From assembly GCA_963920765.1 (NCBI GenBank), contig OY987245.1, positions 22,460,727-22,524,726 of the forward strand: 64,000 nucleotides of DNA, given 5' to 3'. This document shows positions 7,201 to 57,700 of the stretch, piece by piece. A program made the translations under genes and the position numbers. Under the pieces are notes generated by a model. That model was not told the origin of the DNA. It did not search any database and saw only the letters and a program-made list of their open reading frames with translations. The stretch's first letter is position 1; every line of letters begins with the position of its first letter. Source of the stretch: Ulota crispa. Taxonomy: Eukaryota; Streptophyta; Bryopsida; Orthotrichales; Orthotrichaceae.

Positions 7201-7833
7201 CTATTACTTTTGGAATTTTTATTGCACCTTTGTTAAAAAGGAATTGATATGTGTACCACACCCTTTCAATTACTGTACCACACCCTCAGAGTAAATTTTT
7301 GATTTCTACCATCATAAAGCTGAATTTGAGAATTTGGAATTCAAATTTGGACTTAGAGACCATGCTTTAGTCAGAACCACAAAAAAAGTTGCAATTCAAC
7401 AACATCCAATGAAAAAGCTCATCTTTTTTTTACAAACAAAAGTAAAAGTAACAATTTTCTCCCTAGCTAAACTTTTTCATTGGGTGTTGTTGAATTGCAA
7501 TTTTTTTTTATGGTTCTAGACTAAATCATGGTCTCTAAGTCCAAATTTGAATTTCAAATTCTCAAATTCAGCTTTTTGATGGTAGAAATAAAAAATTTAC
7601 TCTAAAATGTGGTACACTAATTGAAAGGGTGTGGTACACATATCAATTTCCTTGTTAAAATTTTGATGTATTTCTGCTTTAAGTAATTCAAAAATCCTAT
7701 GTTTTTAATTTCAAATTTCTACATCTCCAATTTTTTTTGAATATAGTCTTAGAATGATAAAAGTGAAAAAAATATTTCAATCCAAATTTTAAAAAATGAA
7801 CATTAAATTTTCACATTTCATGCTAAAAGCACA

Positions 7834-7899
<66 letters not shown>

Positions 7900-10800
7900 T
7901 AAAAATAAAAGTTCTAAATGTGAGGTGGGCAAGTGTGTGAAATCTTATTTTGGTGGGATTTCAACCCACATAAAAAATAATTAATGGATTTTATTAATTA
8001 ATTAAAATTTATTCTTATTATTATTTGATTTGATCATCATACATTTATTTCATAAAATAAATTAGGAAATTTAGTTGTTTTTGACAAGCCTTTTGAGTTA
8101 TTTGAAAGTTGTTTAACCCTTAAGCGCCCAGTGAGAGGATCTTGTCGTTGGGGCCCACAACTTTATCTCATTTTTTCTCCCGATTGGTACAGTAAAAACA
8201 ATCAAGGCTAGTCTCCATCAACACAAAAGGTAGTCCTTTTTCAAATCCTACGGTCACTTTTTCTGAATGTAATTTTCCAAGCTGTGGTGGCCATAAACCC
8301 CCCATTTTTTCCTAAATCTTAAAATAACTATGAGCGCTCAAGGGTTAACCCCTAAAGGACCATTGCCTCTTTGGAGGACCAATGGGATTTTGGGCATATA
8401 CCTATACTATTTTATATAGTTCTTTTTAATTTTTATTAAGGTGAGGAATTCAAAGACCTACATGGGTATCTAATTTTACTTCATTCATATATTTGATGAA
8501 GAAGTCATGCAAGAATTTATGAAAATTAGGGGTGAAGGAGCAATACAAGCATGGCCTCTCCTTTGTAAATTTGTGTTGATTCCAAAGAGGGTCAACTTTT
8601 ATGGGCACAAGGTGTAGCCACTTGGGCAAAGGAGAGAGGTCTGTCAAGGGCTGTCTTGGGGGACTCCCAACCCTCCATTCCTTCTCCCCCTTGTGAATTT
8701 TGGTAATTTAATTTTGTAAGCAATTTATGTATTTATGTATTTTTTAATTTTCCTTTTCAAATTGAAGTATGTTAAGATTCCTTGGTTTTTGTTGTTTTGA
8801 TTGATGTAATTCAGATTTTTGAAATGGACATAAAGCCTCCAATTTTTCCTAGTGTATTTACAAATTTCATAACCTTCTGACATTTAGAATTTTTTAAAGT
8901 ATGTTCTACACCTCCAATTCATTTGAAAATTCTCCATTACATACTTTCCTTAAACTTCTTAATGGAGTAATTAAACCTCAAGTTTGTATAAAGCATTTTT
9001 TTACTATAAGAGTAGTCAAAGGCTTTTAAAAAATTTGGACAAAACCAACTTCTTTTATTTATTTATTTTAGATGTCAATATCTCACTATTCTTCATCTGA
9101 AATGAGCTGATTTTCTTCCTAGAAGTACCTCTCGGACAAGATCCTATGATTGGATTTTTTTAAAATTCCTAACTTCCTACTCATTCCCCTAGCAGGGGTA
9201 GTTTTTAATGACTTTTACATAAAACTGGGCTTGATCCTGTCGGGGTTAAAACATGCTTTTTTTTGTATCAGCAGTTTTGGTCATTTCACTATTATTTGTG
9301 TCATCAAACTTATATCATATAAATCATGATCATTGATGCCTTTCAGATTAAAGTTAGATTTAATAAATTTTCAAAAATTCTATGGAACTTCAGCACAAAT
9401 TCTACAAGCAAAATCAACATATTAGAACCTTCATGATACATTAATCTAGAACACATAAGGCCAATACAAATTATGTGACTCCAGATTTGCTACATGTATG
9501 AATAACATGTACTCGATTAGGAATTACATAGGCAACAAAACAAAGACATCTCAAGACTGGTCATATGAGAAAGCCCTATTCAATGTATACTTCAAACCAA
9601 AAGTAATTCAGCATCATGTTTTATACTGTAGGCTTAAGGACACAATTTTTTTTCAAAATATTTCAAAGTTTTCTTTGGCACCTTTGCAAGATCACGCATA
9701 TTAAACACATAATGACTTTTACTTGGTGTTGGTAAAAGTTCTTTAACAATCTCTTGATAAACCCCAATGCAAACAAGCATCAAACTGTCTCCTAAAAGAC
9801 GAACTTCGTCCTCAAAATTAGCCAGCTTTGCACTCAAAATTGCTCCAAAAATACGCTTCATTTGTTTATCACTTGGAGCTGTAATATTTAACTATATTGT
9901 TCCCAATCACCCAAAACATAAGATGATTAGATATAAGTTTCCAATACTTGAATTATTCATTGTAAATAGCATGAAAGATTATCAAATTGTATATTGAAGT
10001 GTAACATGATCATGATTTATCAATACACATACTACTTTGTCCATGATTACTTTGAATTTTGAAGCAACGACTTATCAAATATCACGTTTGATCATTCATA
10101 ACTTTGGTGTGCTTTCCAAAATTATTACAAATCAAACTGTGTTTGAAAGAATCAAATTATTATTAATATACAAAAATTGGAGAGTTTTGTAGCATTGAAG
10201 AAGTATTAAAACTCCAAAAATCTCAATTTTGGCAATCAAGTGGGATTTTTTAAAAGTTGTATTCATTAACATGCATTAAAAATTTATTTTGAATTTGCTT
10301 GAAATTTTCTTGAATAATCACTTATATTTGACTTTATAGAGATTTATGAGTTCTATTTTGTTGTTCTTTTTCAAGTTGTTTATTCCCAAATTTTATAGCT
10401 GTCATACAATTTATAGAATTGTGCCTTAATAATTTGGCAAAAGAACTAGTGGTTTTAAAATAAAACGTCTCGAGGTTACAGATTTTTTTCTAAAATCAAA
10501 GGACAAAGATATGTTGAAATGTTATTTCTTCGTATGTACCGTAAAGAAACTAGAGTGACACTTAGGGCCGCTTTACACTATGAGTGGAGGCTGGTTTCCA
10601 GGCTCTGACACTCGGAATGCTAGTACCTAATTGATTTAAAATTCTGAAAACTGCCTCAACTCCTAAGTGCTCTAACCATTTTCATCAAAATCAGGGTTTT
10701 TAAAGATCTACAACTTTGATGCGGCTTATCTTAGTTAATCAAATGATTCACAAAAGTGACCATTGAAAATAGTGAAGCATTTATTTAGAAAATACCTTGC

Positions 10801-25800: not shown

Positions 25801-28800
25801 AATGCAAGTGCCAAAGAAGAATTCAGCTTTTAGATGAAAAACTTGCTGATCGAGAATTTTATTAAGTAGCACGTGGAAGAACGTGCCTGGATGATTTTGA
25901 TCACAAAGGGAGAGACAGTTTGCATCCCTGCTGCTCTCAGATTAAACTCCAATGCTCGTTTCAAATCATCCGCTTCTTTGGGTGCTAATTCAACCCCAGG
26001 AAACAAATCTGAAAGTAAAGCATTGAACAATGGAAGATCTGCAAATATGAGTTTGGGTTTAATCAAGTCTCTCATGGCTCGCTGCAAAATCACATCTTCG
26101 GGTAAGTCAGGCTCCAGCCTTTTCATTCGTCCTGCTGCTCTTGCTATTGGGATGACAAATGAACGAAGACCGTAGTCATAATGATCTTGCTTCGATAGTT
26201 GCCTTTGCGAAAGCTCCATAATTGCTATGACCTTCTTCGATAGAACCTGTGTATTTTTCAAAAAGAAAAATTGGGTATAGAAAAATCCATACAACATTGC
26301 CTACAAACGAGGTAAAAATAAATAATAAATAAAATAAAATATAAATATATAAATATAAAATCATGTGATATGGCTAGATAGGCAGAAAGGAATGTAGGAT
26401 TTGTGTTGAACCTTTGCAGTTGCAAAACCTTCACTAAAGAGCATATTTTCAGCAATCATGGTAAAATCCGGAAGCATCATAGATACCGGTCGTAGCATAG
26501 CTTTGAGATTTTCTGGAAGTTCACTTCGGCCAGCATACCCAGGATTCATTGTAACAAAAATACCACATGTACGAATTAATCGCATCTCTACCCCTGTTAA
26601 TTTCATTAAAACATGTGAAATAATATTGCTTTAGCAAGACCTGAGAATCTTATTTCGATGTATCATCAAAATAACAGAAATCACTCTAAGCATTTTGTGA
26701 TTCGTTTAATGCAATATGTTTTTTTCCCTTAAAACTAATTTCTATATGCTATAGGTTTTGCATGTTTGTGTATTTGTTTGCAATGATTCAAATTTTTTAT
26801 ACCCACCACCATGCAAGAACTTTGTAATATTATGATATAGAATTAATTCCTAGAAGTTAGGAATCAACGATTGCAATACACAAAGTATTTTTAAATGTAA
26901 AATAAACGTTGAAAAGTACCAGCAAAGACAAAACGATCTAGTTCAGCTTTGATAGCTTGCATGACAGCTGAGATTTGTGAGGCCACAACGGACAGAACTT
27001 CAACTTCAATCCGATTGAATTCATCCAAACATGCCCATGCTCCAGTTTGGGCCAATCCAGAAAACATGGTGGCAGTCATTTTATAATCCACTCCATCGGA
27101 ACAATTAAACACAATCACATATCTGCATTTTTATTTTATTTTGAGGGTGTTGTTTGTCAGTAACAAAAGCATTGACTTATTTGATTAAAAGACACTACAA
27201 TAATTGAAGTAAACTCAATATGAATGCGTGAGGATGACTTATGATTTCTTTTAATATTTTAGAGGATTATCTAAAGGTTAAGAAAAATAACCAACATATA
27301 ATAATGTAAATGATTCAAGTTTTATGCTTATAGTTTTTATTGAAGTAGTTTTCAACTGACATCATCTTCTTTTGAGCAAAGAATTGTTGATGACATTAAT
27401 TGTTGTGTGATGCATTCAAGAAGCATGAGGAGCTTTTGTTGTAATATTTTGCATTTGGTATGTATGAAAATAAGAATAAACTCCGCTTTTATTTTCAAAG
27501 TGGGTTCATGACTTATGAACATCACAAAAATGCAATATAATTGACAAATGAAAGGGTTCGTGAAAAGAAAATCACTTGGAATTTCGTGGATGACGTAGAT
27601 TCTCGGCCAACTAAATGTTGATCTCGTTTGAACCAAAAAACGTCTTGAGTTTTCAAACCTTTTAAAGCACAGTTCTATGACTGATTCTTGGATAAAATTA
27701 CTTAAATTTGTAGTAGTATCTTTAGTCTAAGTTATTTAAGTTTCATCAAGAAGATTTTAGCATTTACAAACCTGGCAAGCGCTTTGCCAAAGTCCTTGAC
27801 AGTCTCGGTTTTGCCGGTTCCAGCAGGGCCAAGAGGGTTGCCCCCTCGACGAGTGAAAAGAGCAGCACCAAGGGTGATGTAGCAACGATCCGTGAGTGGA
27901 GTCACCACCAGGCGCCCATTGTTCCCTTGGTACTCATAGCCGTACACAAATATCGACAGTACCTGGACATTCAAACAGTTGATTCACATGTATGTATATT
28001 CACCCAAAAAACACCAACACCAAAGCTCACTATACAAATCATGCATATTATTTGTAAATTAACCTCCGTGGACATTTGAGAGAGAGAAGCTTATGAGCAA
28101 ACCAACCAACCAACCAACCTGTTTGATAGTACACGTGTCATCTTGCCAATAGAATCGTAGTTGAGACGACCATTCAAACTCTTCGGGAGCTGAGCACTGG
28201 ACTCTGATCAGCTTTTCCAGCACATCCCGTGCATGCACTTCAATTGTAATGAGCGATGTCTACAACAAATTCAGAACCATTGGTATCATCAATACAGACC
28301 TGATATATTATCCCGTATATTATTCAATTCAATATCCTGATATGTTAATATAACTGGGAAAACAACAAATAGGGAGACTGATTTACGTAAGCAGATGTGT
28401 TTATACTCTTCATTTTTACAGGCAATATACCAATCGAAGTGTTCATGTGTGTGTATACATGCGGGTTGAATGTATGTAATTGTATATATTTGTGCTTTTG
28501 GTACATATCTACAAACGTATAACAAAAGAAATCTGAAAGATGATTGGATTTATTTATGATATTTAATTTGTGTGATTAGATGTGCGCAATCTGTATTACT
28601 TTACAAAATTTTTGTTTCATCGAACATAATCTAGTGGAAAAGTAAGGTGTATTATTATTGAAGGAACTCGAATATTTCAATTGGTGTATTAATTAAGTAC
28701 TTTGCAAGTCAACTTATTGCAAGTTAGTTAATAAGCACGTACAAAATGAAGAAAAAAACAACACAATAATAATAATAATAATGATAATCATAATAACAAA

Positions 28801-34800: not shown

Positions 34801-36700
34801 CAACTCTTTTGTCGCAGCAATACTAAGATCATTTATAAATTCTGAATGAGTAGCCAATTTGAGCTCAAATACCTTTGTTCCATCAAAAAAAATTTAGTAG
34901 TTTCCAGCAAAATAAAGTGAAAAAAATGAATTTTATTTTCATTTGAGAACAACATAAGAATTAGCGTGTAATTTTCAAAAATTCAAAATTATTTAGATTT
35001 ATACTGAAACCCATCAAAAATTAATAAACGGTCATAATTTTCCTTAAAGTACGTAACAAAGAAAATTGACTAAGAATTCTTTGCAATAATGGACATGATA
35101 TTTACTTGGACTAGTAAATTAGTTCATTGCTTTTACGATTATATGAAGTTCAAGTATTAAAGAGAACAACGTTGTTTGTGCATGTACTTTTGCTAGGGTG
35201 AAGTCATTAGAACTTGGATCGAAAAACTGGCCAACATGTCCGATCAATTTCTCCCAATGGCGCTCTCGAAGTGCAGGGTTTCGTAAATCAATAGTTAATG
35301 GCAAAGTTTGTTTGAAGGAGTCTACGGTCTCTTTTAGTTTAATCCATGCGCTCCAACTACAATTTTAGAATCCAAAAAACTCTCAAATTTTGAACATATT
35401 ACTAGCTTTGAATAGTACATTGTAAATGACAACTTCCATATTAGTTGCATTAAGAGACACTAGTATGAAACATTATACATTGTATTAACTTAAACATCAT
35501 AAAAATTTCATTACAATTGATGGTGTGTATAGGATTCGACAATTAATTAATAAAAATTTGTGTAGATTCATTAGCATTCCTCTTCAACATAAACTATTGT
35601 AAATAATAAATTAAAATATGAAGCTCTAAAGAAAACAAAACACGCTAGAAAAAATTGTTGCCTTCTTGAATGTCTTTTTAAACAAACTTTGAAGTTGCAA
35701 CAAACTCAAATTAGAGATAATGAACTTGTAAGGAGGAAAAAATAGCAAGAAAAAGTATTTTGTGATTTGTATGCTTAGTTTTATATTGAGTACTTGGTTG
35801 TTCACCTATTTCATTTTCAAAACACACTTTGTTGGTGAATGTACAAGGAACAACAAATGGGTAGAAGTAGAAGATGGAAATAAGTGGATTTAGTTTACTT
35901 GTGAAATAAAAAAGCTCCAATTTTTTATGAACTACCTGTTTGATCTATTTTTATAGGTGTAAGTGGAAAGAAAAAAGGAAAATTAATTGCCAAGAGAATG
36001 TAATTAAATCAAAAGAATTGTACAAAATTGAATACTACTATCCTTTTTATAATATTATTTATTTTGGTTAATTTTTTGAAGTGCCTAGCTTTCATGTTAT
36101 CCACTTGGGATAATGGTATTTGATGAGCGTAACACTGTGAGCCGTGAGCTAAGATTCAAATGAACAAAAACTGATTTTGAGCTCAAATTTAATGTAAAAG
36201 TTAGAAAATTGGCAAGTCTTTCAAGAGATGAAAGCTTAAAATGTACAATTATACGGCGCTATGTACACAACTATTATTGGAAATTTATTATTTTGACAAA
36301 AAATCTAGGCTCACAGTTTAGTGCTCACATATCCCCGATCACTAAATAGCATTCCCAATTTACGTGTTTGTTTAACTTCAAAATTTTCCAAAGTATTTGG
36401 TTAGATTTAATGCATGATCTTTAACATCTTTGAAAGCCTATGCTCTTTGTTCTGATAGTGTGAAATGATCTATCAAAATCAAAACATTCTTTCTTGTATT
36501 AACCCCTAAATGCCCAAGCCCTTTTTTCTCTGAAAGTCATTGAAAATTGCCACTTTGGGGGCAATGAGTTGAAAAGTAGGAAATAAAGTTTTTTTTGAAA
36601 ATCTAACTACAGAATCCTATTCTAGACTAAGGGAGGTACTTGTGGAAAAAAAATCAGCTCATTCTAGATGTAGAGGAGTGAGAAATTCACATATGAAGTG

Positions 36701-36742
<42 letters not shown>

Positions 36743-39700
36743 TTGTTGGTTTGTTTTTTCCATGTAGAAGACCAAGTTAGGTATGTGTGGGAGAATTTCA
36801 AATTAATTAGAACTACACAACACATGGGAAAAAATAGTAAGTAAAAAGAAGTACAAAATGAGTCAAATCACTAAATTGTAAAGAATTTCATTATTGAAAT
36901 GAAAAGTGAGAATCCCGACGGTCACAATGTTGTAATAAACAATCTACTTTCTTAGGTTTAGTTTTTTTTCCAAAATATTGAAAATTATGGAAAATAAAGG
37001 ACTTCAAAGTTTATTTTAGAGTACAAGATCCATAACTAACCATAAACTAAATCATCTCGTAACTTTCATCTCATTGATTGAAATTGAATGATTCAAAGCT
37101 TCCCACATTAAAAAAAAAAATCTAAAGAACCAGTTTCAGATTTTTATATTAAAAAATAACAAATTTTAAAGAAGTTTTTGGGCTGCCCAAATTGCCCTCC
37201 CCCCTGTGGTTGCATAAATTCTTGCATAACTTCATCGTCAAATGTCAAAATGAAGAAAAAATTAGATGCTTGCGTAGGTCTTGGAATTCTCCACCTTCAA
37301 TAAAAGTTTCAAAAAATCACAAAAACTAGATTAGCTATAGTAAATGCCCAAAAACCATTTGTCCCCGCGGGGGACAGTTGATCCTTTAGGGGTTAAAGAT
37401 ATCTTTTAAATCTATAAGGTTTCTTAAGTCTACAAGCATTTGATTAAGAACATTACAATTACTACTTATAAAAGCCATACAACTAGTTATTGCATATTTT
37501 GCAATAAACGTTATATTATCTTCAAGCAACTCACAAGGCAACAACATATCTAAACATAAATATTTAAGCTCATCTTTAAAATGTTAGAAAAATCAGTTTT
37601 TCCATCAGATCATGATAGCATGTATTAAGTGAAAAAATGGATTGGTTTTGGTGAGTGATTGAAAATTGAGATATTATGGAAAACTTTGCAAAATCCTTGA
37701 AATTAGTAAATATTCATGTAACACGTGTATCAATAATTGGGTTACCACGATTTAAACCTTCGAGTAAAATTTTCAGAGAGCAAATTCTGTGACTTATTGC
37801 TTTTGCAAATTACGTCATCTAACTTACATATAAAGAACCTTTATGTATACGCATGTATGTATGAAAGATATTCTTACGTTTTACAATCACGGGCAATCTT
37901 AAATAATCGTTTACCAAAGAGTTGGGCAGCTGTTTCCATAGACCCAACATCTAAGTCACTAAATAATCCATCTTTCCAACTATCATAAGCATCTTCCCAT
38001 TCTTTTTTTAGACCCCACATGCCAAACAAAATATCTAATTCTTTTGAAGTTTGAATATTCTCTTTGTTAGATAATTTCTCCATTCCAAAAAGAGCCATTC
38101 CTCCCCATAATTCTACACCACGTTTTAAAAAGGAATCAACCTGTTCCAATGTAAAAAAATTGCATCAAAAGTAAATCATATAAAACTATGAAATCAATTT
38201 TGAATAGAAATCAAATTATGAAACAATTAAACACAAAATTAATCAATGGACGTGTATGTCTCAAATGAGTAATGCCCCTAGCAAGGGACCTTTTAATGAG
38301 ATTTTTTTTTTTTAAATGTCAAAATGACATGGATTTCAAATAACCTTTAAAGCTAAAATTACCTTTTGCACATTTGGAGTAAACAGTGTCAACGTATTCT
38401 AGTAATGGAGACAAATATCTTAGGCAAAAACATATATTATATACTTTTTGTGTAAAACAGACTTACAATAGTAACAGTTGTTATGCACTTACAAAAACCG
38501 TTATTGTTTTTTATAAATATTGATTAGTGCTATAATTAAAACAGTTTGATTGGAATGCTTATGTTTTACATAAATTTGACCAAGTTTGGCAACCTGATGT
38601 TTTGTATGTTCAATTGTTTATCATTGCTATCTATAGTATAATTACATTTGGTAAGACCAATTCATTTTAAGCACTTCCTTTATATCGAACAATTTTTATT
38701 CTTACAACACCACTTCAAATTTAATTCGCTATTTGAAATAAACCTTTTTGTTACCTAATAATGTCATTTTCTCAATTTCTATTAAATCTACATGACTCAA
38801 TCAAACAGAACATATCACCGCATTCAATTTGAATGAAACATAAAATCCATTCCTACATAGTAACACCGTGCAAAAGCAAAAATGAGTAAATTATAAATAA
38901 TTACCTTTGCACGCTCTTCGGCAATAAATTGTAAAGCATCAGAAGTCACTATGGTGGCATCCATAGGCATTCCCTTTACAAATGCTGTTCTTGTCTCGGT
39001 AACCTAATTATTTATATCAAATTGCAATTAATCAAACTATACTTTAATTAGCTGAGTTAACTAGTAATATTAAACATTGAAATTTTCATGCAATTAATAA
39101 TAAATAATTATGACTTAAAATATTATTTTTATCTAATATTTAATATAAAGTATTCACGTACAAGAGTAAACATACGCAGTAATGCTATGACTTAACTTTG
39201 AATTCAATATCATCTATATTAATCTTTGACACACCTCAGATACAAAGCCCCCAACCATATCTTCTAATGTATCCCGAAAGCTATTTTTCGCATTTTCCAA
39301 CTTCAATTCTATCTCAGCAAGCATTATTTTAAATTCTTCCCACGCCTTTGGTATTCTTTCTAGTAAGCGTTTTTCTTCTTCGCTTAGCAATACCTGTCAA
39401 TTTTATCACATTTAAATACATACAACTGAAACTTATATATCAACTTTTCTTGAACAAAGAATTCATCATCAAGCTACTCAAAGCTAGTTCCAAAATAGTA
39501 CAAATACTCATGATGTATCCCAAATCAATGGATTTTCATATTTCTTGGAATATTTTGTTTATACTTGCATCAACTTCTTTCATATTTCTAATGTATTTTA
39601 ATTTTAAAAACATCGATTTTTATTTGTAGGAACTTATACAAGTGCGATTTTTTCCTTCAAGTCCTTGAATACCCCTCAAACCCATTCAGTAATGATTTTA

Positions 39701-42700
39701 ATGGATTTTGTATTAAAAAACTATGATTGGAAATCGATCACTCCCTGAACCATAAAACCGTGAGCTGGCACAGGTATCAAGGCAAGGTGGTTCATGGGTT
39801 TACTCCCAAAATTGAAAGACATAAATAAAATTCAAAAGACTTATTCTAATAAAATACTTGCTTGTAAAAATTGATGAATTTAGATAATGAATTTTGTAGA
39901 AATTTTTCTTATGAAGTTTTCTTATGGGAATTGATGTTTGCACACTCCTTGGGGTTAATTTTAGATCTCTCCCATCATAAAGCTAAATTTGAGAAATTTG
40001 AATTCAGATTTGGACTTACAAACCACGATTTAGTTTAAAACCATAAAAAAGGAGTTGTAATTCAACAATATCTTCTTCTTCTTTTTTTAATTTACAATCA
40101 AAAGTAAAAGTAATACTTTTCCCCTAGCTAAACTTCTTCATTGGGTGTTGTTGAATTGAAACTTTTTTTTAATGGTTCTAGACTAAATCATGGTCTCTGA
40201 GTCCAAATCTAAATTTAAGTTTCTCAAATTCAGCTTTATGATGGTAGAAATTTAAAGTTAACTCCAAAGGAGTATACAAATATCAACCCCCTATGTGCAT
40301 ATATCAATTCCCTTTCTTATTTGAGTCTTTTGCACTATTTGCTAATTACATTAAACGCTATATTCATTACTTTGGGAAAAAACTCATTTTTGGGACTTTT
40401 GAATTTTGCTTTCTTGAAAAGTATTTAATGAATACATGAGCATGTTATAGAACTTTCTAAAAATGAATGCTCCAAGTTTTTATTTTGATAAATTATAGAA
40501 ATTCTGTTTTTCTAGTTTCGTAGATTGAGTCTAAAATTCGCCTTTACATTTCGGTTTTTTTAATCCATGACCAAATGAAACCACTAACAAATATAGTTGT
40601 TGTTTACCTATTAGTGAAACTGAAGTTAACATACGCATTTGTGTGTACGAATGTTTTTAATTTCATTAAAAATCAGTCAGTTTGATTCAGGATTTTGTTG
40701 ACAATCTGAATCGATTAACCCCTAAATCCCTGAGTGTCCCCTTGGGGGACAAATGAGATTTCGGGCAAGTATCTATGGCTAAACTACTTTCAGTGATTTT
40801 TTTTGAAATTTTTATGGAAAATGAGGAATCCAAAGATCCGTGTGCACATCTTCTTTTTTTTTGATTCTGATATTTTTGGAAGAAGTAAAAAATGAATTTC
40901 TGATTTTTTTTGGAGATGGGGCAGTCCGGGCAGCCCAAAAGCTTTTTTAAAATTTACAGTTTTTTGAAATAAAAATCTGAAATTGGTTCTTTGAGGTTAC
41001 ATATACATGGGAAGCTTTGAATCACTCAATTCCAGTAAATGAAATGAAAGTTATGAGGACTTTTAGTTACTTGGTAGATATGGCTCCATATCTACCAAGT
41101 AACTAAAAGTCCTCATAACTTTCATTTCATTTACTGGAATTGAGTGATTCAAAGCTTCCCATGTATATGTAACCTCAAAGAACCAATTTCAGATTTTTAT
41201 TTCAAAAAAATGTAAATTTTAAAAAAGCTTTTGGGCTGCCCGGACTGCCCCATCTCCAAAAAAAATCAGAAATTCATTTTTTACTTCTTCCAAAAATGTC
41301 AAAATGAAAAAAAAAAAAGATGTGCACACGGATCTTTGGATTCCTCATTTTCCATAAAAATTTCAAAAAAAATCACTGAAAGTAGTTTAGCCATAGATAC
41401 TTGCCCGAAATCTCATTTGTCCCCCAAGGGGACACTCAGGGATTTAGGGGTTAATTGAACATTGGTATATATTCTATTCTTTTACAACTGACGATGTGAA
41501 GCGTTGTTCCTTCAATGCAACTTTATAAGCAAAATATCACATGAGCTTCTAAGAAGTGAAATGCTGCTTTTTACATTAACTTTCATCATTTGTAATAAAT
41601 TTTGATTTGAAAGGAGGATCACGGGACCAATATAAAGTTAAGTGCAAGTTGCATCCAACTAAATTTATACAAATAAAGATGTCTGAACACTTTATATACA
41701 AGAAAGGTGGTTTATGACTCCAAGAATAGAATGTTTCAAGATTTGAAGTGATTGTGTTGAAGTCTCTTGTTTGAACATTAGAAGTAGATGTTTTGTGCTA
41801 TGTAAAAATCAAATTTGTTTAAAAAGTTAAAGGTCATATATTTACATGTTTTTGATATGGAATTCTAGAAATGGCCATCATTATTTGTGTCATCAAAATT
41901 ATACCCTTGGGCCTTTGGTCTTAACCCCTAAAGGACCATGGCTTTTATTTTGTCAAAAGATACTCAAAGCTGTCACTTCTATGGAAAAGAGAAAAAAAGT
42001 TTGAAAATTAATCTTTTTGCATATTTGACCATAGGATCTTGTACTAGACTATTATAGGAGTGAGTCATACAAAACTCAAGAACTTTGACCGCACATATTG
42101 CAAGATATTTGTGGTTTGAAGTGTAAAAAATAGCTTTTTTTGCACCTTGCCTAACAAGATTATTTGACTTTGAACTTTTTTAACTTAAAATTTTTGCACC
42201 ACAAAGTTTAGAATTGTATTTTTGCATGGTGAGAAGTTGAGTTGGTAATCTTGGGAAAAATCAAAAACAAAAAAAATTAATTTTCATTCTTTAAAAAATA
42301 CATTAGGTAGAAGAAGGTATGAGATTGAACAAAAACTTTAATTGCTAATAACCCTGCAATGGAATTGAAATGCAATAACCCCAATGGTGAGATTGTTCTA
42401 GAAAGCAAACTTTACACTCTCAAACAATTTTCTTTGAAAAAGTGTTATACTTGCATTCAAAAATGAAGTTTATAAGCTATTTTTTCAAGAAGATACTTGA
42501 ATTGCCCAAAAAACATAATTGTTCATAACTTTCTCATAACTAGTCCAAATGGAATGAATCAAAGCTTCAAATGTAGACAAATATATAATCTATTGAGAAA
42601 AAAGTAAAATAAAATAAAATTCAAGTTTTTATAAGATTTTTTTTTTTTGCTGCCCGAAATCCCCAAATTTGTGCTTATTTGGGCATAACTTTTGCTCCTT

Positions 42701-45700
42701 GGCATCAATTGGAATAAAAATCATATTCCCCAAAAGCTAATGTGTTTTTCTATTTTCAAAAAAAGTTTCAAAAAATCTGAACAAAATTGAGGCTCTTAGT
42801 ACTTGCCTAAAATCCCATTTGTTCATTGAACAGACAAGTGGTCCTTTAAGGGTTAATGTTTGAGATGTGCAATCTTTATATTGGATGTTGCAATTGCATA
42901 TGCTTTTGAAATTGTACTTGTTTTGAAAGCAAATTTTTGTGTGTTTATGTGATTCTTTTTATCTATACCTAAACATCTAAAATGCAATTGTTGGTTACAG
43001 ACTTGAACCAAACAGTGTGTTGGTTCTAAACACAAAGTTAGATATTAGAAATTTCAGATTTTTTTAGAATATGATTTTTCCAAATTGTTTTGTAGGAAAA
43101 CACCTTCATTTCTACTGCTTGGAATGGAATTTTTATTCTTGAATTTTATAAGAAAGTTGCAACTTTGATATGTTGAAGTGTATCAAGAGAACTTCTAACA
43201 AAACTAAGCTTTTTCGTATGTATCCAGTCAATTGTAAAAACCAAGCACCATATGGTCAACTTGATTACTAATAATCTGTACACTAACCTCCCTTTTTTTA
43301 AATCCAATTTTGATGAACTATTGAATCAAACTATTTTGTAATTTTTTTTCACATTTAGCTGATATAATTTGATAGTGCGAAAGAAATAAGTATTGGAAAA
43401 AATTTAGGCTGTAGTTGACAAAGGCAACATTGAGATTTTGTGACTGGTAACGTGGTTTTATATATTTTATGGAAATAAACTGTTCAAGCATGTAAAAATT
43501 TGTATATTATTGTTCAGAAAAGTCAACAAAAATAAAAATGTTACAAATTATATAAGAATTACGCAGTTGAGGTTTGTTGTTGTTTTTAATTATTCAAATC
43601 TCAATTAAGAATATTAAGTTAAATCGTTGAGTTTATGTTGATACCTCAAACTTATTTAAAATACGATATTTATCATACAAAGGATCAAATCGTGTTTCAG
43701 TTTGACTAGTTTCATCACAAATAAATTTCCATAGTTGAGCAGTTTGTGTTAATTCTCCTAGATTACTGGGAGGCCTGTTACACTCCTCTTCATTCCTGTA
43801 TAAGTTCAAAGAATTCAATTAAATATGTATTTTTTGATACTGTATGTGAGTTTATTAACCCCCAAAGGCTTTTGACTATGTTTTCATCAAAACTGCCCCA
43901 AAACTGCCATTTGTAGTGCAAGTATCAAATTTTAGATAAAAATTATTTTTGGACACATTTAACCATAAGATCTTGTAGTACATTAGTATCCAAAAATGTG
44001 AAAAAAAATTCAGAAATTTTTGCCATGTGGATTGTTAGGTGACTGAGTTTGAATTGATAAAAAGTCATTTTTTGTTCCTACAAAAATCCAGGCAGCTGCA
44101 CTTCACAAGGTCATATTTTTATGAAAAAAGTTTCAAAATGGTTGTAATTTTTTGTGTTCATTCTTCAAGGCAAATCAAGTACACACTTAAAATAATTCAA
44201 ATCATTTGGAAATGTATAACACATAGGAAAAAAATAGTAAGTAAAAAATAGAGAATGATACAAAACACTAAATTGTTAAGAATTTAATTATGAAAAACAA
44301 AAATTCCAATCCCAATGGTTAAAATGTTGTAATAAACAATCTACATACTTTGGCTTTATTTTTTTTCCAAAATATTAAAAATTAAGTAAAACATAAGACT
44401 TAAAAGTTTTTTTTAGAGTAGGGAATCCATAACTGCCCACAAATAGAATCTCCTCATAACTTTCATCTCATTGATGAAAATTAAATGATTCAAAACTCCC
44501 AAGGATATATATATCTAAAGAATCAATTTCAAAAATCAAAATTCAAAAATTGTAATTTTTAAAAAAGTTTTTTGAGCTGCCCGGGCTGCCCTCCAAACAA
44601 AGAAAACTACATATCATGCAATAACTTTTGAACCATGAGATCAAAAGTTATGAAATTTGTTGGGCCTTAAAGCTACTCCTCAACACATCATGTGGGAAAA
44701 TTTCAAAGAAAAAAAATGAAAAATCCATTTGCAGTGGGCTGCCTAAAATTGCTATGTTGCCAAAAAAAACACGGTTTGGGCCTTTACGGGTTAAAACACT
44801 TTTTCTTTACAAATCTTGTTTAGTAAGTATTGCCTCCCCAAAAAATAATTAATAGTCATATGAACTTACAAGTTTTTGTATGTGAAATTATATCTTAATA
44901 TATCAGTTTTTGTTTTTGATGTTCCCTATTTTTCCTAAATAAGTTATAAAATGAAGAATGGCTTATTACTGATGAATGTTTTAGTCTGATGATAATTGCA
45001 AAAGATGTGTTACTGAAAATTGCATCCATAACGTTAGCTCTTTTAGACACAATTGTGTTGATTTTTTTGGCAGGGGGTGTAGTATGATGATTGCTTACTA
45101 GGGTATAGATACTCTAACTTCAAATTTGGTAGAATAGAAGGACTCGTATACATAGTGTAAGGTGTTATTAAAAGATGGTTAAATTATGTGACAAATAAAT
45201 GTTAGGGTTTCCCAAAAATGTTTGGGTTTTCCAAAAAAATGTTTTTGAACTTGTTATTATGTAAGTTGTAAAATATCATCATTCATTTGGTCATTTTTCC
45301 AATTGTATTTTGAATTGCAACGGCATTTTGTTTCAACATGCAATGTCTTTGAAATGAGTATCAGATATTAATTTGTAGCCCAACTGTATTACATCTTTAT
45401 TCCTAAATAAGGTACAATCCTTACAATCATAACTTCAAACCCCGACAAAGAATCAGTTCCTTTTAGTGCACCTCAATTTTATTCAAAATGATATATAATC
45501 CAAGTATCCAACTAAACAAAAGTAAAGGTAAATTTGAAAAGCTTTGTCTTAAAATGCTTTGTTGCATCTTTAAAACTTGTCATTAAAAAATTGGTCTCAA
45601 AACATGGATATTTTTTGCAAATGAATTTTTTGATGCACAACATGTCCAAAAAAGTATTTTGTACTATATTATAGGAACTTTTTGAAAAAATCTTTTGCAT

Positions 45701-48700: not shown

Positions 48701-51700
48701 GGTAATGAAATCACGTCAGTGCTTACAAATTGAAGCATGTGTACGTGATCATGCATAAAATTCAATGATTTATACTCTATGTCTGTATATAACAAAAACT
48801 ATTAAACAACAAATATTTCAAGGTGATAATAAAGTGCTGTCTAAAAAACCATTATTAACACAAACTGTGGACATTTATATGCCCTCTTTAATTACTTTTG
48901 GACTATCCAAAATCTACAGTTATATGAATAGTATACAAGCAAATAAATACATCATGTATATAGTTTGCTGCAAATTTTACCTTGTATTTATAAGTTTAGT
49001 GACATTGTGACACCCAATCATTATGATGGTTGAATTGCAAATTGATATTATGACAATTTAGATATATATTTAAACAATGCTTTTATCTTGTTTTAATGTT
49101 ATAACACTTTTTTTAAGGGAAAATTTCATAGATACCCTTGAAGTTTGTCATACTTTCATAGATACTCTTGCTTTTTTAGAAATTTCACAAACATCCTTGG
49201 ACCAAGATTTTCAGATGTTTGTTTGGTTGTGCATGCCACTTCCTTTCTTTCTTTGTGTGCACGCATAGCAAGAAAGAAGTAGTGTGTACACAAAGGGAGA
49301 AGGAAGTGACATGCACAACAAAACAAACGCTTAAAATTTTTGGACCAAGAGTATTTGTGAAATTCCTGAAAAAGCAGGGGTATCTATGAAAATATGACAA
49401 ACTTCAGGGGTATCCATGAAATTTTCCCTTTTTTTAATGATTAATAAATTTTATGAACAAATATGAGCATGTCCTCTATTATGATTTTTTTTTTGCAAAC
49501 TTAATTATTACAAGAGATGAAAATTCCAAACATATGTATGGTAGTGTTGCTTTGATAGAAAACGCCTTTCAAAACTCAACATCTATACAGTAAAGAATTT
49601 AACAACAATGTTTTAGAAGATAAATAATAGATAGATAATTTGTATAGTTCATTACAAATGTATGTATACATACATACATACATATAAGAAATAAAAAAAG
49701 AACAAGTATAACAAGACAAAATTAGATAAAATATATTATTATTAAATACAAAGAAAAAAGTATTGAAAATATTTTTAAACTTATGTCTATTGTTTTGATG
49801 TTGTATAATGATTGTTTTGTTTCTAAAATATTTTTCCTAACAGTTCTTGCTATAAATTTGAGAATACGATTTCTTATTTTGCACCAAGAAAATGCATTTT
49901 TAGTGCCAACAACAAGCGTATGAGCCAATTGTGACCTTTCTTTCAAAATTTGAAACTTCATGATAAAACACATTATTAGAATATCTGTTGATGGTAGAAA
50001 CAAAAACCAATACTACACAAACTTATAAAAACATGTCATGAAAGATCCCCAAAAAAAAGTGAAAATCTGTGCTTCAAAATTAAACCAAAATCAAGTATAA
50101 TTTTTTTGAGATTTCAAGATTACATGTAAAATAATGGAAAACATTAATCTATATGTTTGATTTCTTACTTTTTAAAATACTGATAAATAGCATAGAGCTC
50201 CGTTTTTGCAATCTGATGTAATAACGTTCTGAACAACAACCAAATTTATTTTTTAGAATCTGTTGTTCTGATTTATCATTTTTTATGAGACAAAAATATT
50301 GCAATGCACATATTTAAATAGTGTTTTATTTACTAGTCGAACACATGTTTTTTTTAATAAACTTTGTGGGATTAGATTTTCTTTAAAAACCTTTAATATG
50401 TTATAGCTCTAATTATGTTTCATGTAACATAATTTGTTACACGTAAGAACATATAATCATAGTATCATACATCTATTTGATTCTGGCCAAAAATGTGATT
50501 TCTAAGATTGTCTTGGGTCAGTGTGAAAGTCCTGATTTCAAAAAGTACTATTCTTTTTTAGCATATTTTTTGGATAGAATCAACAAAAATTTCTATTTGT
50601 TTCATAAATATAATCAACAGAATTTCTAATTTTGAATGCAATCCTCTTGAAACATGAACGGTAAAAAGATCGGAATGAGATCTGAGCTCTAACCTCAAAG
50701 TATCAAAAAAGCCCAATTGTCATTTGATTTCAACAACATTTATTCTGAGAAGATACAACTACTAATTTTGGTAGGAACTTTCTTTAACAATATTGCCAGT
50801 TTCACATAGTCCAAGCCATCAATTTAAATTTAATTCTCCTTGTAAAAGTACGGAGTTTCAAACCTTGAGGTAAGGAAAACATTCTTGAGAGTTTTTTGAA
50901 AAAGAAATCAAGTTATTATCATGAGATCTTGTATTCTCTCACAGAAAAATCAAAATTATTTGCTCACCTAGCAAGGTACAAAAAAAATGCAAACGTAGGT
51001 TCTCTTGCATGCAAAAACAAGGTATACAATAAGAAATCAACTTTGCAACCACCATGGAAATCAAAAGTATTCTTCAACAAAAAAAAATGTAAGTAAAAAT
51101 TAGAATTACCTAAGAAACATATAGATTACTTTTGATAAAATTTGTGGAATATTGGTTGCATACCATTGATTATTTATACCTATAGTCGCCTTGTCAAAAA
51201 ATATGGTAAATTTTTATTGGTACAAATATTATATTCTTTGAAAAATATGTTTATATTGCAAAAAAAACTTCCTTATCTTTGTGTTCTTCTAAACATGATA
51301 AAATTTCTCATTTGAAAGTTGTTGTTGGGTTCACAGTGATATTTGAAATGAGTTTTTGAAAGTTTTAATGGCCTCAAATGTACAACTTGCCAAAAAAGAT
51401 GTGTTTTTATTGTCACCTTGACTAGATTAAGGAACCTTTTAACTATGCACTATGAGCTTTGGCCACTGCTACTTATTTTCACTGGGAAATTATAAATAGG
51501 GGCATGAAAATGAAAATATTATAAATAGGGGCATGAAAATGAAAATATTAGAAATAGAGGCATGGTTTCAAAGTAATTATAAATAGGGCACATTTTCAAA
51601 ATAATTTGTAATATTTTGTAGTTTTTTTTGGTTTAGACATTGGTTGATTTAGATACATCACATTGAATGTTAATCAACTTTCAAAAAACTTAAAAGTCTC

Positions 51701-54700: not shown

Positions 54701-57700
54701 TATAAATTTTTGGAAAAAGACATGATTGGAGGACACTTGGTGTTTTATATCTTGGGTGTTCTTTGTTACTTCAACTTCCAATAAAAAATTCTAGAAGGTT
54801 CTAAAAAAGGGCGCACTTAGGGGAATCCTCCCACTTAATAGTATAGATATGACATCTTACATTGAGGAAGGTAAGTGTAAATCAACTTATGTGAAGTCAA
54901 GATTACTTTTTATTGTAGTAGAGAAACAAAAGGATTTGCTAAACAATTTGAATATTTTATGTGACATTATACAATGCTTGTGGATATAGAGCACTTACAA
55001 AAGATGGATTCATTTAATTAGCTTTGGAGAAATTAGGAGGGACCTTTATCATAACACGGCTCTTCTACTAGAAAGAAGATTTAGCCCATGAATGATGGTA
55101 GAAATCATCTATCCTTCATCACTAAGAGATCAAAGAACAACAATCGTTGCAATTACTATTCAAAGTAATTTTGAGTCCTTATAGACTATACAAACTAAAG
55201 ATTAGTTTTCTTTCCTTGAAGAGGTTTGTAGAACAAAGGAGGTATCATGAATATAGAAAATATGCAAAGACATCATATAAAAGGAACTATTTTGAATTCA
55301 TAAAAAAATTGCTTAGAAATTAGATTAATGATAGTTGAAATTATTTTAGAATGAAGAGAACGCTTATGATGCAGGATGTTTTTGGGTTCAGCAGAAGGAG
55401 TGAAAGAATTTTCCAATAAAAAATACATTTAAGAATTTAGAGAAGCCCTATGTCTAGTCTTGACAAAGCATCCCTTGAAATTCTAGCTCAAACTGCTCAT
55501 GTGTACTTTCCTTTTCAATTCTAAATTTTAACCTGGTGTTTGTTTATTCAAGTTTTTGTTCCAACTAAGTTTTAATATATTTGTAATACATTTGCTTTAC
55601 ATAAGATATCTTTCACAGTTTGAAATACTTAGCATTGTAATTACAATGAACAAAATGCATGCAACTTGCCATCTTTCAAAGGTATGAATTTCAATAAACA
55701 AAATATTCACATTGTTTTTTTTTGGATTAGAAGTTCATATCAATTTCAATTAAAAGGTTGACGTTCAAAAGTATATTGTAGAATGTTTGAAAAAATAGTA
55801 TTTGATAGTCGATGACAAAATATTGATGTCATGTTTAAATTAGTACACTCTAAGCCATGGTTAATACCATATAAATTACATATCCACTTTTAATCCCTAA
55901 ATGCCCAAGGCACCATATTTTGGTGTTCAAAAACTTCAGAAATTTTTGAAACCCTGTGGAAGGCATAGATTTTATTGTTTTAAGGTTTTTTTTCTTGGAA
56001 AAGTTGCTCGCTAAAGATAGCTTCACAATTCAAATTTAACTTCTTCCATATCTTATACTGATTGTATTTGGTGGAAGGTTAACCGCAAGCATAAATTTTG
56101 TGTCATGAATAATGTCATGAAAGTGTCATGAATAGTGTTGTGAATAGTGTCATGAACAGTGTCACTGAGCCTATGAGAAGTTGCCACATTGAAAAGACAT
56201 GCATCAAGTTGAGCAAAAGGTGAAGATTTTCCTTGGGCACTCCCTTAACCCCTAAAGGACCAAGCCCCCTTTTGAGGGACAAATGGGATTTTGGGCATGT
56301 ACCTATGGCTAAACTACTTTGCATGATTTTTTGAAAAATTTATGGATGATGGAGAAATCAAGGATTTATATAAGCATCTAATTTTTTCTTCGTTTTGAGG
56401 TTTATTGAAGAAGTTAAAAATGAATGTATGGAAAATGGGCAAGATCAGGCAGCCCAAAAACTTCTTTAAAAATTGCATTTAAAAAAATTAAAAATATGAA
56501 AGAGGTTCTTTAGACTTATATATACATAAGGAGCTTTGAATCATTCAGTTTTCATTGATGAGATGAAAGTTATGAGAAATTTTTGTTTGCAGGTAGGTAT
56601 GGTTTTGAGAGAAACTACACCTACCCGCAAACAAAAACTTCTCATAACTTTCATCTCATCTATCAAAATTGAATGATTCAAAGCTCCTTATGTATATATA
56701 AGTCTAAAGAACCTCTTTCATATTTTTAATTTTTTTAAATGCAAACTTTAAAGACGTTTTTGGGCTGCCCAATCTTGCCTATTTTTAGAAGTTCATTTTT
56801 AACTTCTTCAATAAATGTTAGAATGAAGAAAAAATTAGATGCCCATGTAGATATTTGAATTCCACACCTTCAATAAAAGTTTCAAAAAATCACAAAAAGT
56901 AAATTAGCTGTAAGTACATGCCCAAAATCCATTTGTCCCCCAAGGGGACAATTGGTCCTTGAGGGGTTAAGCAGCAAGGCCTTTTTTATTGAAATTTTGA
57001 CATCTAACAAAATCTAAAAAAACTTTTTGACTGATTTCACTTGGAATGTCTTTGTTATAAATATTAGAATTCATTCACCATTGAAACTTCTTTCATTCAT
57101 ATTGATTTTTGGTTAATAGCTGAAGCTAAAAAATTCTTAATATTAAACAATTGCGCTTTGACAATTGCATACCAAGCTCGTTTGTGAAACTTTGGTCATG
57201 GATTTGGAAGGTAGGCCATTAGTTTTGAAGTAACAACAACAAACACTAAAGCATCTTAGGTGATGGTTTTCCAATTTTGTATCCAAAAGTTGCCAATTTG
57301 CATTAGAAGTTTTGGGCAACTCCAAAAAAGTAAAAAATTCCATACTCATCATATTTCAATCACAAGTATCTCAAAATCAGTGTGGCCATTTTGGACTTTT
57401 TTTGGGTAGCGCCATCTAGAAGCCTTGAAGTTCAAGATTTAACCCCTCACCACCCAAGGGGCCCGAATTGGACCCCTCTGAATTTTATTCAGAGATATCC
57501 GACCTTTTTTTAAGATTTTTTTGTGTGATTATTATTATTTTAAAATTCTTATTGAAGTCTAGTTTCAACATTAGGAGCTTGATTTTGAAAATGAATTAAA
57601 TTGATTTTTCTATTCAAGATTTTGTGCAAGGGTGTCTATTGCAAATCTTCACTTTCTAGTGTTGAAGGCTCTTTGAAATGAGCTTGAAGTACACTAGAAC

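Follow-up and report, generated by a model that had tools for sequence, protein, structure and literature searches.

The PALTTAA elements of Repbase, from Caenorhabditis elegans, are non-autonomous, have TTAA sites and form almost perfect palindromes, and the palindromic subfamily of Ulota crispa described here as subfamily A is like them in these respects. In yeast, correction of quasipalindromes by template switching homogenises the arms together with an inversion of the spacer, as in A and its relative subfamily B, and the affected repeats have shorter spacers. The yeast arms described are short, with a search starting at 7 bp and examples of 8–16 bp, and events are counted singly (PMC8604942), whereas A has arms of 370 nt in dozens of copies that were inserted separately, and yields a distance profile. 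Stem maintenance by template switching has also been proposed for RNA genes, in which perfect stems are maintained, like the arms of A (PMC8794818). Template switching has been proposed as well for mitochondrial genes of Nematomorpha, where the arms of inverted repeats are identical while the sequence differs between species; unlike A, these repeats are mitochondrial and coding and form no mobile-element family (PMC6649704). The stretch between inverted repeats flips in chloroplast stem-loop microinversions, as the loops of B do, although in organelle DNA; the avian inversions studied in the same paper are unassociated with stem-loops (PMC3123225).

Among mobile elements, the closest cases are from Drosophila. 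The ends of GalileoN-1 and -2, which belong to the Foldback-like Galileo, are more than 99% identical within a copy and about 7% divergent between copies. Galileo is unlike A in its middle segment of about 350 bp and its place in the P superfamily, and the contrast was used to detect recombination between copies, with no distance profile in the available text (PMC2775673). The inverted-end repeats of Tetris, a foldback element of Drosophila virilis, group together in two of three complete elements, a possible homogenisation for which unequal crossing over or gene conversion was suggested; these ends, unlike the arms of A, contain tandem repeats (PMC4079207). No report of arm homogenisation in MITE families or palindromic TTAA elements was recognised in the available part of the open-licence literature, nor was a distance-resolved, copy-replicated case found there for any mobile-element family. 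The element type and the process are each known in outline; what is added here is a variant replicated over many copies and resolved by distance.

The locus lies in a stretch of 64,000 nucleotides, called the window, and comprises the following features.

40715–41454, no strand: palindromic TTAA element, subfamily A, identified by self-comparison and by 40 of 40 scored genome matches, on both strands.
40715–41084, plus strand: left arm of the palindrome, 370 nt, starting with TTAA and CCCCTAAATCCC.
41085–41454, minus strand: right arm, 370 nt, mirroring the left arm with 6 mismatching pairs.
41082–41087, no strand: fold point GGCTCC; the two arms disagree in the centre column in 43 of 44 A copies, and a 4-nt loop lies here in the predicted RNA.

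When the 740 bp are compared position by position with their reverse complement, 364 of 370 pairs are complementary. The mismatches fall at 40853, 40863, 40867, 40871 and 40959 and at the centre pair 41084/41085, and the arms do not differ in length, so that the coordinates, symmetry and centre given by the initial annotation are correct. The TTAA and group terminus which it had placed at both ends are also present (TTAA followed by CCCCTAAAT). A repeat search stretches the palindrome to 40711–41458 at 98%, and its own arms are 98.4% identical. RNA folding predicts one hairpin of -629 kcal/mol, whereas 20 shuffled sequences average -161 (sd 5.5). The palindrome is confirmed as real.

Two open reading frames flank the palindrome.

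43636–43818, minus strand: ORF with a dynein heavy chain exon, upstream of the palindrome's intron, matching residues 1111–1156 of 8glv_Co (E 3.4e-5).
39217–39396, minus strand: ORF with the next dynein exon, downstream of the intron, matching residues 1159–1211 of 8glv_Co (E 3.7e-4).

The best match of the dynein fragments is 8glv_Co, which we take to be a Chlamydomonas entry, and the ORFs at 25830–26300 and 58316–58507 match it in order. Against the Pfam family DYH2-5-8_CC, the upstream ORF scores 36.0 bits (cut-off 27) and the downstream ORF 20.5 bits, below the cut-off. Since the ORFs on both sides match neighbouring stretches of one inner-arm dynein heavy chain, the palindrome lies within an intron of that gene, which supports the intronic position proposed earlier. 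On the minus strand of the window, the exons of this gene, for an axonemal inner-arm dynein heavy chain, can be followed over approximately 25830–58507. The 25830–26300 fragment matches 8glv_Co (E 2.4e-45) much more strongly than it does entries of dynein axonemal heavy chain 2 (E 5.9e-22 and 1.7e-21).

The genome searched comprises 274.8 Mb in 157 contigs. Of 4914 first-look candidates 40 were scored; all 40 cover nearly the whole element and are symmetrical, and they lie on contigs C1–C10 and C28. With the exception of the window copy itself, they are 88–91% identical to the window palindrome. The search for other symmetrical copies proposed by the initial annotation thus succeeded, and a unique snap-back event at 40715–41454 is ruled out. 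A second genome search, with copy L044 as query, added eight more A loci. The A sample consisted of the 48 best-scoring copies (the window copy and 47 fetched elsewhere), from which 4 under 728 nt were dropped and 44 kept. For each of the families B, C, D and E introduced below, 21 copies including that of the window were read, the best-scoring among 40 scored matches each, with one incomplete match passed over for D.

The 200-nt flanks of the A copies mostly share no similarity, apart from those of one segmental duplicate, L014/L026, and occasional partial matches that resemble shared neighbouring repeats. TTAA stands at the start and end, as trimmed, in 38 of 44 copies and is a putative target site duplication. 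Termini of piggyBac type start with CCC and end with GGG; CCCC/GGGG termini are found at most ends of 40 A copies, some of them altered by point changes. The window palindrome contains no ORF as long as 110 aa. Judged by these sequence features, the palindrome belongs to the non-autonomous, piggyBac-like (TTAA) mobile elements and represents a single member of a dispersed family of many copies. The genome holds 120 matches to the piggyBac-type transposase domain PF13843 (528 first-look candidates); in most of them the matched stretch is interrupted by stops, and a few are free of these. A fuzzy search for the A termini in 20 transposase loci with 1.5-kb flanks gave loose matches on both sides of one locus (L060), single matches in five others and none in 14.

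The origin of the arms can be approached through a longer element in the same window.

36499–37396, plus strand: 0.9-kb non-palindromic element, family C, whose right half (37029–37396) is homologous to the A arm.

The A arm aligns over its whole length with 37029–37396 at 72–73%, and with the majority sequence of 21 family C copies at 80%, in agreement with the initial annotation, which had read the arm as the right half of the 0.9-kb element. No inverted symmetry was found in the C majority sequence at the BLAST threshold used. A head-to-head origin, with the A arms as two versions of this right half, would fit; the further claim that a new foldback element was created at this locus is not supported, the palindrome being a member of an established family. 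The A fold GGCTCC lines up with a 6-nt dyad, GGATCC, of the C majority sequence, intact in 10 of 21 copies, but the 939-nt sequence contains 15 six-nt dyads in total, so this alignment is suggestive only and may be a chance match. A turn-around at the GGATCC dyad as the source of the A palindrome is plausible, not proven. A short self-complementary repeat lies at 36703–36740, inside the 0.9-kb element. Stretches bounded by TTAACCC and GGGTTAA are also seen at 41921–42856, in the palindrome's intron, and at 43855–44794, the latter 78% identical to the 0.9-kb element over 273 nt.

If the A copies had come from one symmetrical source and then aged, arm identities within and between copies should be equal. 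Within copies the mean is 0.960 (0.918–0.992) and between copies 0.908 (0.864–0.954, the top pair being the segmental duplicate; n=44 for both). The closest arm to the left arm is the copy's own right arm in 38 of 44 copies, and an arm of another copy in the remaining 6. In the first 37 copies, derived bases occupy both arms at 471 copy-sites, against 101 expected when left and right arms are mispaired between copies (sd 8.5; maximum 128 in 300 shuffles). Private substitutions, meaning those found in one sampled A copy only, occur on both arms 122 times in 43 copies against a mean of 0.6 expected (maximum 2 in 40 shuffles). These patterns argue strongly that the arms of each copy have been homogenised in place. 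Two points tell against it: the 6 left arms that are closer to another copy, and a negative relation per copy between one-arm and symmetric changes (Spearman -0.55). A crude equilibrium estimate puts the mid-arm copying rate per site at about 138–287 times the mutation rate, a figure to be read as an order of magnitude only.

The initial annotation had taken the near-identity of the arms to mean that the element was young or kept uniform. That it is kept uniform is supported, more strongly than could be known from the window. Youth, as read from arm identity, is rejected: the nearest relative found of the window copy is only 91% identical to it, and the best-matched copy, with arms 99.2% identical, has its nearest relative at 92%.

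The homogenisation depends on the distance from the fold (d, in nt). It was followed as the ratio of arm mismatch to between-copy divergence, with bootstrap intervals; L026 was left out of the A profiles and private-change counts as a duplicate of L014. The A ratio is 1.02 (0.41–1.63) at d 1–5 and falls through 0.47 at d 12–19 and 0.24 at d 30–49 to a minimum of 0.14 (0.03–0.25) at d 80–109. It stays near-level at 0.27–0.34 over d 140–259, and outward it reaches 0.45 at d 260–289, 0.74 at d 320–349 and 0.86 (0.67–1.02) at the outer end. A flat profile is rejected (chi2 134, 6 df, mismatches treated as independent), and in 36 of 43 copies the inner part of the arms holds fewer mismatches than the outer part. 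Homogenisation is therefore absent at the fold, strongest about 30–140 nt out, roughly level at d 140–260 and nearly gone at the outer ends.

The density of private substitutions per arm is about even at all distances (0.0093–0.0132), while their symmetric share runs from the fold to the end as 0.30, 0.71, 0.81, 0.84, 0.73, 0.68, 0.38 and 0.41. The even density indicates that equal time has elapsed everywhere along the arm, and that changes in mid-arm have been copied across or erased.

The segmental duplicate shows such changes within a single insertion. L014 (G000:C10:2226227-2226967) and L026 (C10:278461-279197) are one A insertion that was duplicated, with flanks 96.5 and 97.0% identical. 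Between them, the sites at d 0, 7 and 10 are swapped between the arms and those at d 32 and d 320 are not, which shows that the fold region has been inverted since the duplication. At d 83 and d 339, both arms are altered in L014 only. These symmetric changes postdate the duplication, so transposition is unnecessary for them. One-arm differences number twelve in L026 (d 33–300) and one in L014 (d 153), an unevenness suggesting that homogenising activity differs between copies. The site at d 153 is swapped between the two despite the unswapped d 32, which needs another event or chance.

A second palindromic subfamily shows the same behaviour more weakly.

56245–56970, no strand: palindromic subfamily B, in the same window, with a majority sequence built from 21 copies.

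B is 80–81% identical to A and 81–84% to C. Its majority sequence is symmetric over the inner 190 nt or so of the arms, except for the loop and one adjoining site, and carries fixed left/right differences in the outer part; of the 20 differences passing a 70% threshold, one falls in the loop and 19 are found from d 193 outward. Symmetric derived changes number 40 against 6.9 expected at d 20–140, 36 against 21 at d 140–260, and 7 against 7.8 beyond. Five of 21 copies have the loop flipped and their outer markers still in phase. Four changes are needed on the tree, of which well-supported branches force only one, and two of the five flipped copies are the duplicates L086 and L088, both of which are included in the symmetric-change and loop counts. 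L088 was left out of the B ratios, which are milder than those of A, with the interval below 1 in two bins only (0.62 and 0.71). B thus shows a weaker version of the arm homogenisation of A. The two duplicates (L086, G000:C1:38017183-38017906, and L088, C5:20071153-20071877) represent one B insertion, with flanks 95.4 and 90.4% identical and both loops flipped. Among their 52 differing sites only 2 are symmetric (d 246 and d 178) and none at d<140, so the pair gives no sign of inner homogenisation since duplication.

Two further families with larger loops served for comparison.

7233–7658, no strand: family D, inverted-repeat element with an unmatched centre of about 50 nt.
49115–49430, no strand: family E, inverted-repeat element with an unmatched loop of about 18 nt and a few adjoining mismatches.

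Same-arm identity between copies is similar in the three families (D 0.925, E 0.918, A 0.908). Within-copy arm identity is barely above the between-copy cross-arm value, at 0.884 against 0.876 in D and 0.859 against 0.853 in E. Symmetric changes number 28 against 12.9 expected in D (maximum 20 of 200 shuffles), with the excess at d 120–160, away from the loop, and 17 against 8.2 in E (maximum 16 of 200 shuffles). Little homogenisation is thus seen in D and E, both larger-looped than A; they are also shorter-armed, so that an effect of loop size is confounded with arm length. The window contains another short self-complementary repeat at 7836–7907.

Taken as a whole, these data are best explained, with reasonable probability, by a piggyBac-like palindrome whose arms overwrite each other in place after insertion by template switching. 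Replication template switching as the specific cause is somewhat favoured, from the pattern alone. The growing strand would pass the fold and either anneal back on the arm just copied or cross to the other template strand. It would then use the first arm as template for the second over some hundreds of nucleotides before returning, which would restore pairing within the copied tract, and a switch beginning before the fold would flip the loop. The fold-proximal 10–20 nt would escape if a minimum stem is required, and the outer arm ends would escape if few tracts extend there. An effect that is missing at the fold and fades outward agrees with a switch dependent on some paired stem and limited in its tract length; the near-level ratios at d 140–260 are also allowed by the main rival and make the case weaker.

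The main rival would likewise equalise the arms in place, through mismatch repair of a cruciform or through gene conversion between sister chromatids or homologues aligned in inverted register, for which breaks at the fold may be the trigger. We regard it as unlikely, though a serious contender, as the same homogenisation data fit it. Recombination in inverted register would also invert the loop, near the fold it would swap sites without equalising them, and it predicts a level stretch like that of the A ratios (0.27–0.34) just mentioned. Cruciform repair, on the other hand, does not invert the loop. The ratio minimum at d 80–110 suggests a process tied to the fold, which speaks against this rival, and conversion in inverted register should tolerate a spacer of 18–50 nt, yet D and E are little affected (a comparison confounded by arm length). 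Against both forms stands the absence of GC bias: AT>GC and GC>AT changes in A occur in a ratio of 142:239 among symmetric changes and 155:283 among one-arm changes.

It is improbable that assembly or polishing placed the reads of one arm on the other and so made the arms alike except near unique flanks. The arms are known from the assembly alone, the protected outer zone is the zone that a unique flank would anchor, and D dips at 40–80 nt from the flank to a ratio of 0.70 (0.51–0.90), close to the 0.61 of A. At 80–160 nt from the flank, however, the ratios are 0.36 and 0.32 in A but 0.84–1.02 in the other families of the same assembly (B 0.97 and 0.93, D 0.84 and 1.01, E 0.95 and 1.02). The fold itself, moreover, is unhomogenised, and many copies carry one-arm differences here and there along their inner arms; at d 30–200 such differences are absent from only 10 of 43 A copies.

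Very improbable, too, is that no homogenisation followed insertion, each copy having started out perfect, made from a master palindrome of its own, and having only aged since. An element whose inverted ends are long can be born with the two nearly identical, few fixed differences are seen in the outer arms of the D and E majority sequences, and private changes are private among the sampled copies, not among all copies. But ageing from a perfect birth predicts even divergence of the arms, and the flat profile is rejected; private changes are evenly dense and yet symmetric mainly in mid-arm. The copy with the best-matched arms has no near relative, as given above, and the changes between L014 and L026 require no transposition. 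Symmetric differences between masters would themselves require homogenisation. Finally, selection for RNA pairing that holds the arms matched is scarcely credible, even with a very stable predicted RNA hairpin and an intronic window copy, against an effect that spans dispersed copies and is graded by distance from the fold, and private changes that build up at even density along the arm.

Under template switching, as under any copying of one arm from the other in place, arm identity is unusable for dating palindromic elements. Template switching has mostly been described as single events in short repeats, and the dozens of separately inserted 740-bp palindromes form a natural experiment on the reach of switching, its rate relative to mutation and its fading. 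Tentatively, and at just under an even chance, long palindromic elements may correct themselves after insertion with neither selection nor transposition, replication re-copying one arm from the other, for about 300 nt, at a per-site rate that exceeds point mutation by two orders of magnitude. Dozens, perhaps hundreds, of near-perfect hairpins would then last as long as the copies themselves, until chance mismatches end the process. Long hairpins, which are possible sources of dsRNA and small RNAs, can in this way remain near-perfect without selection.
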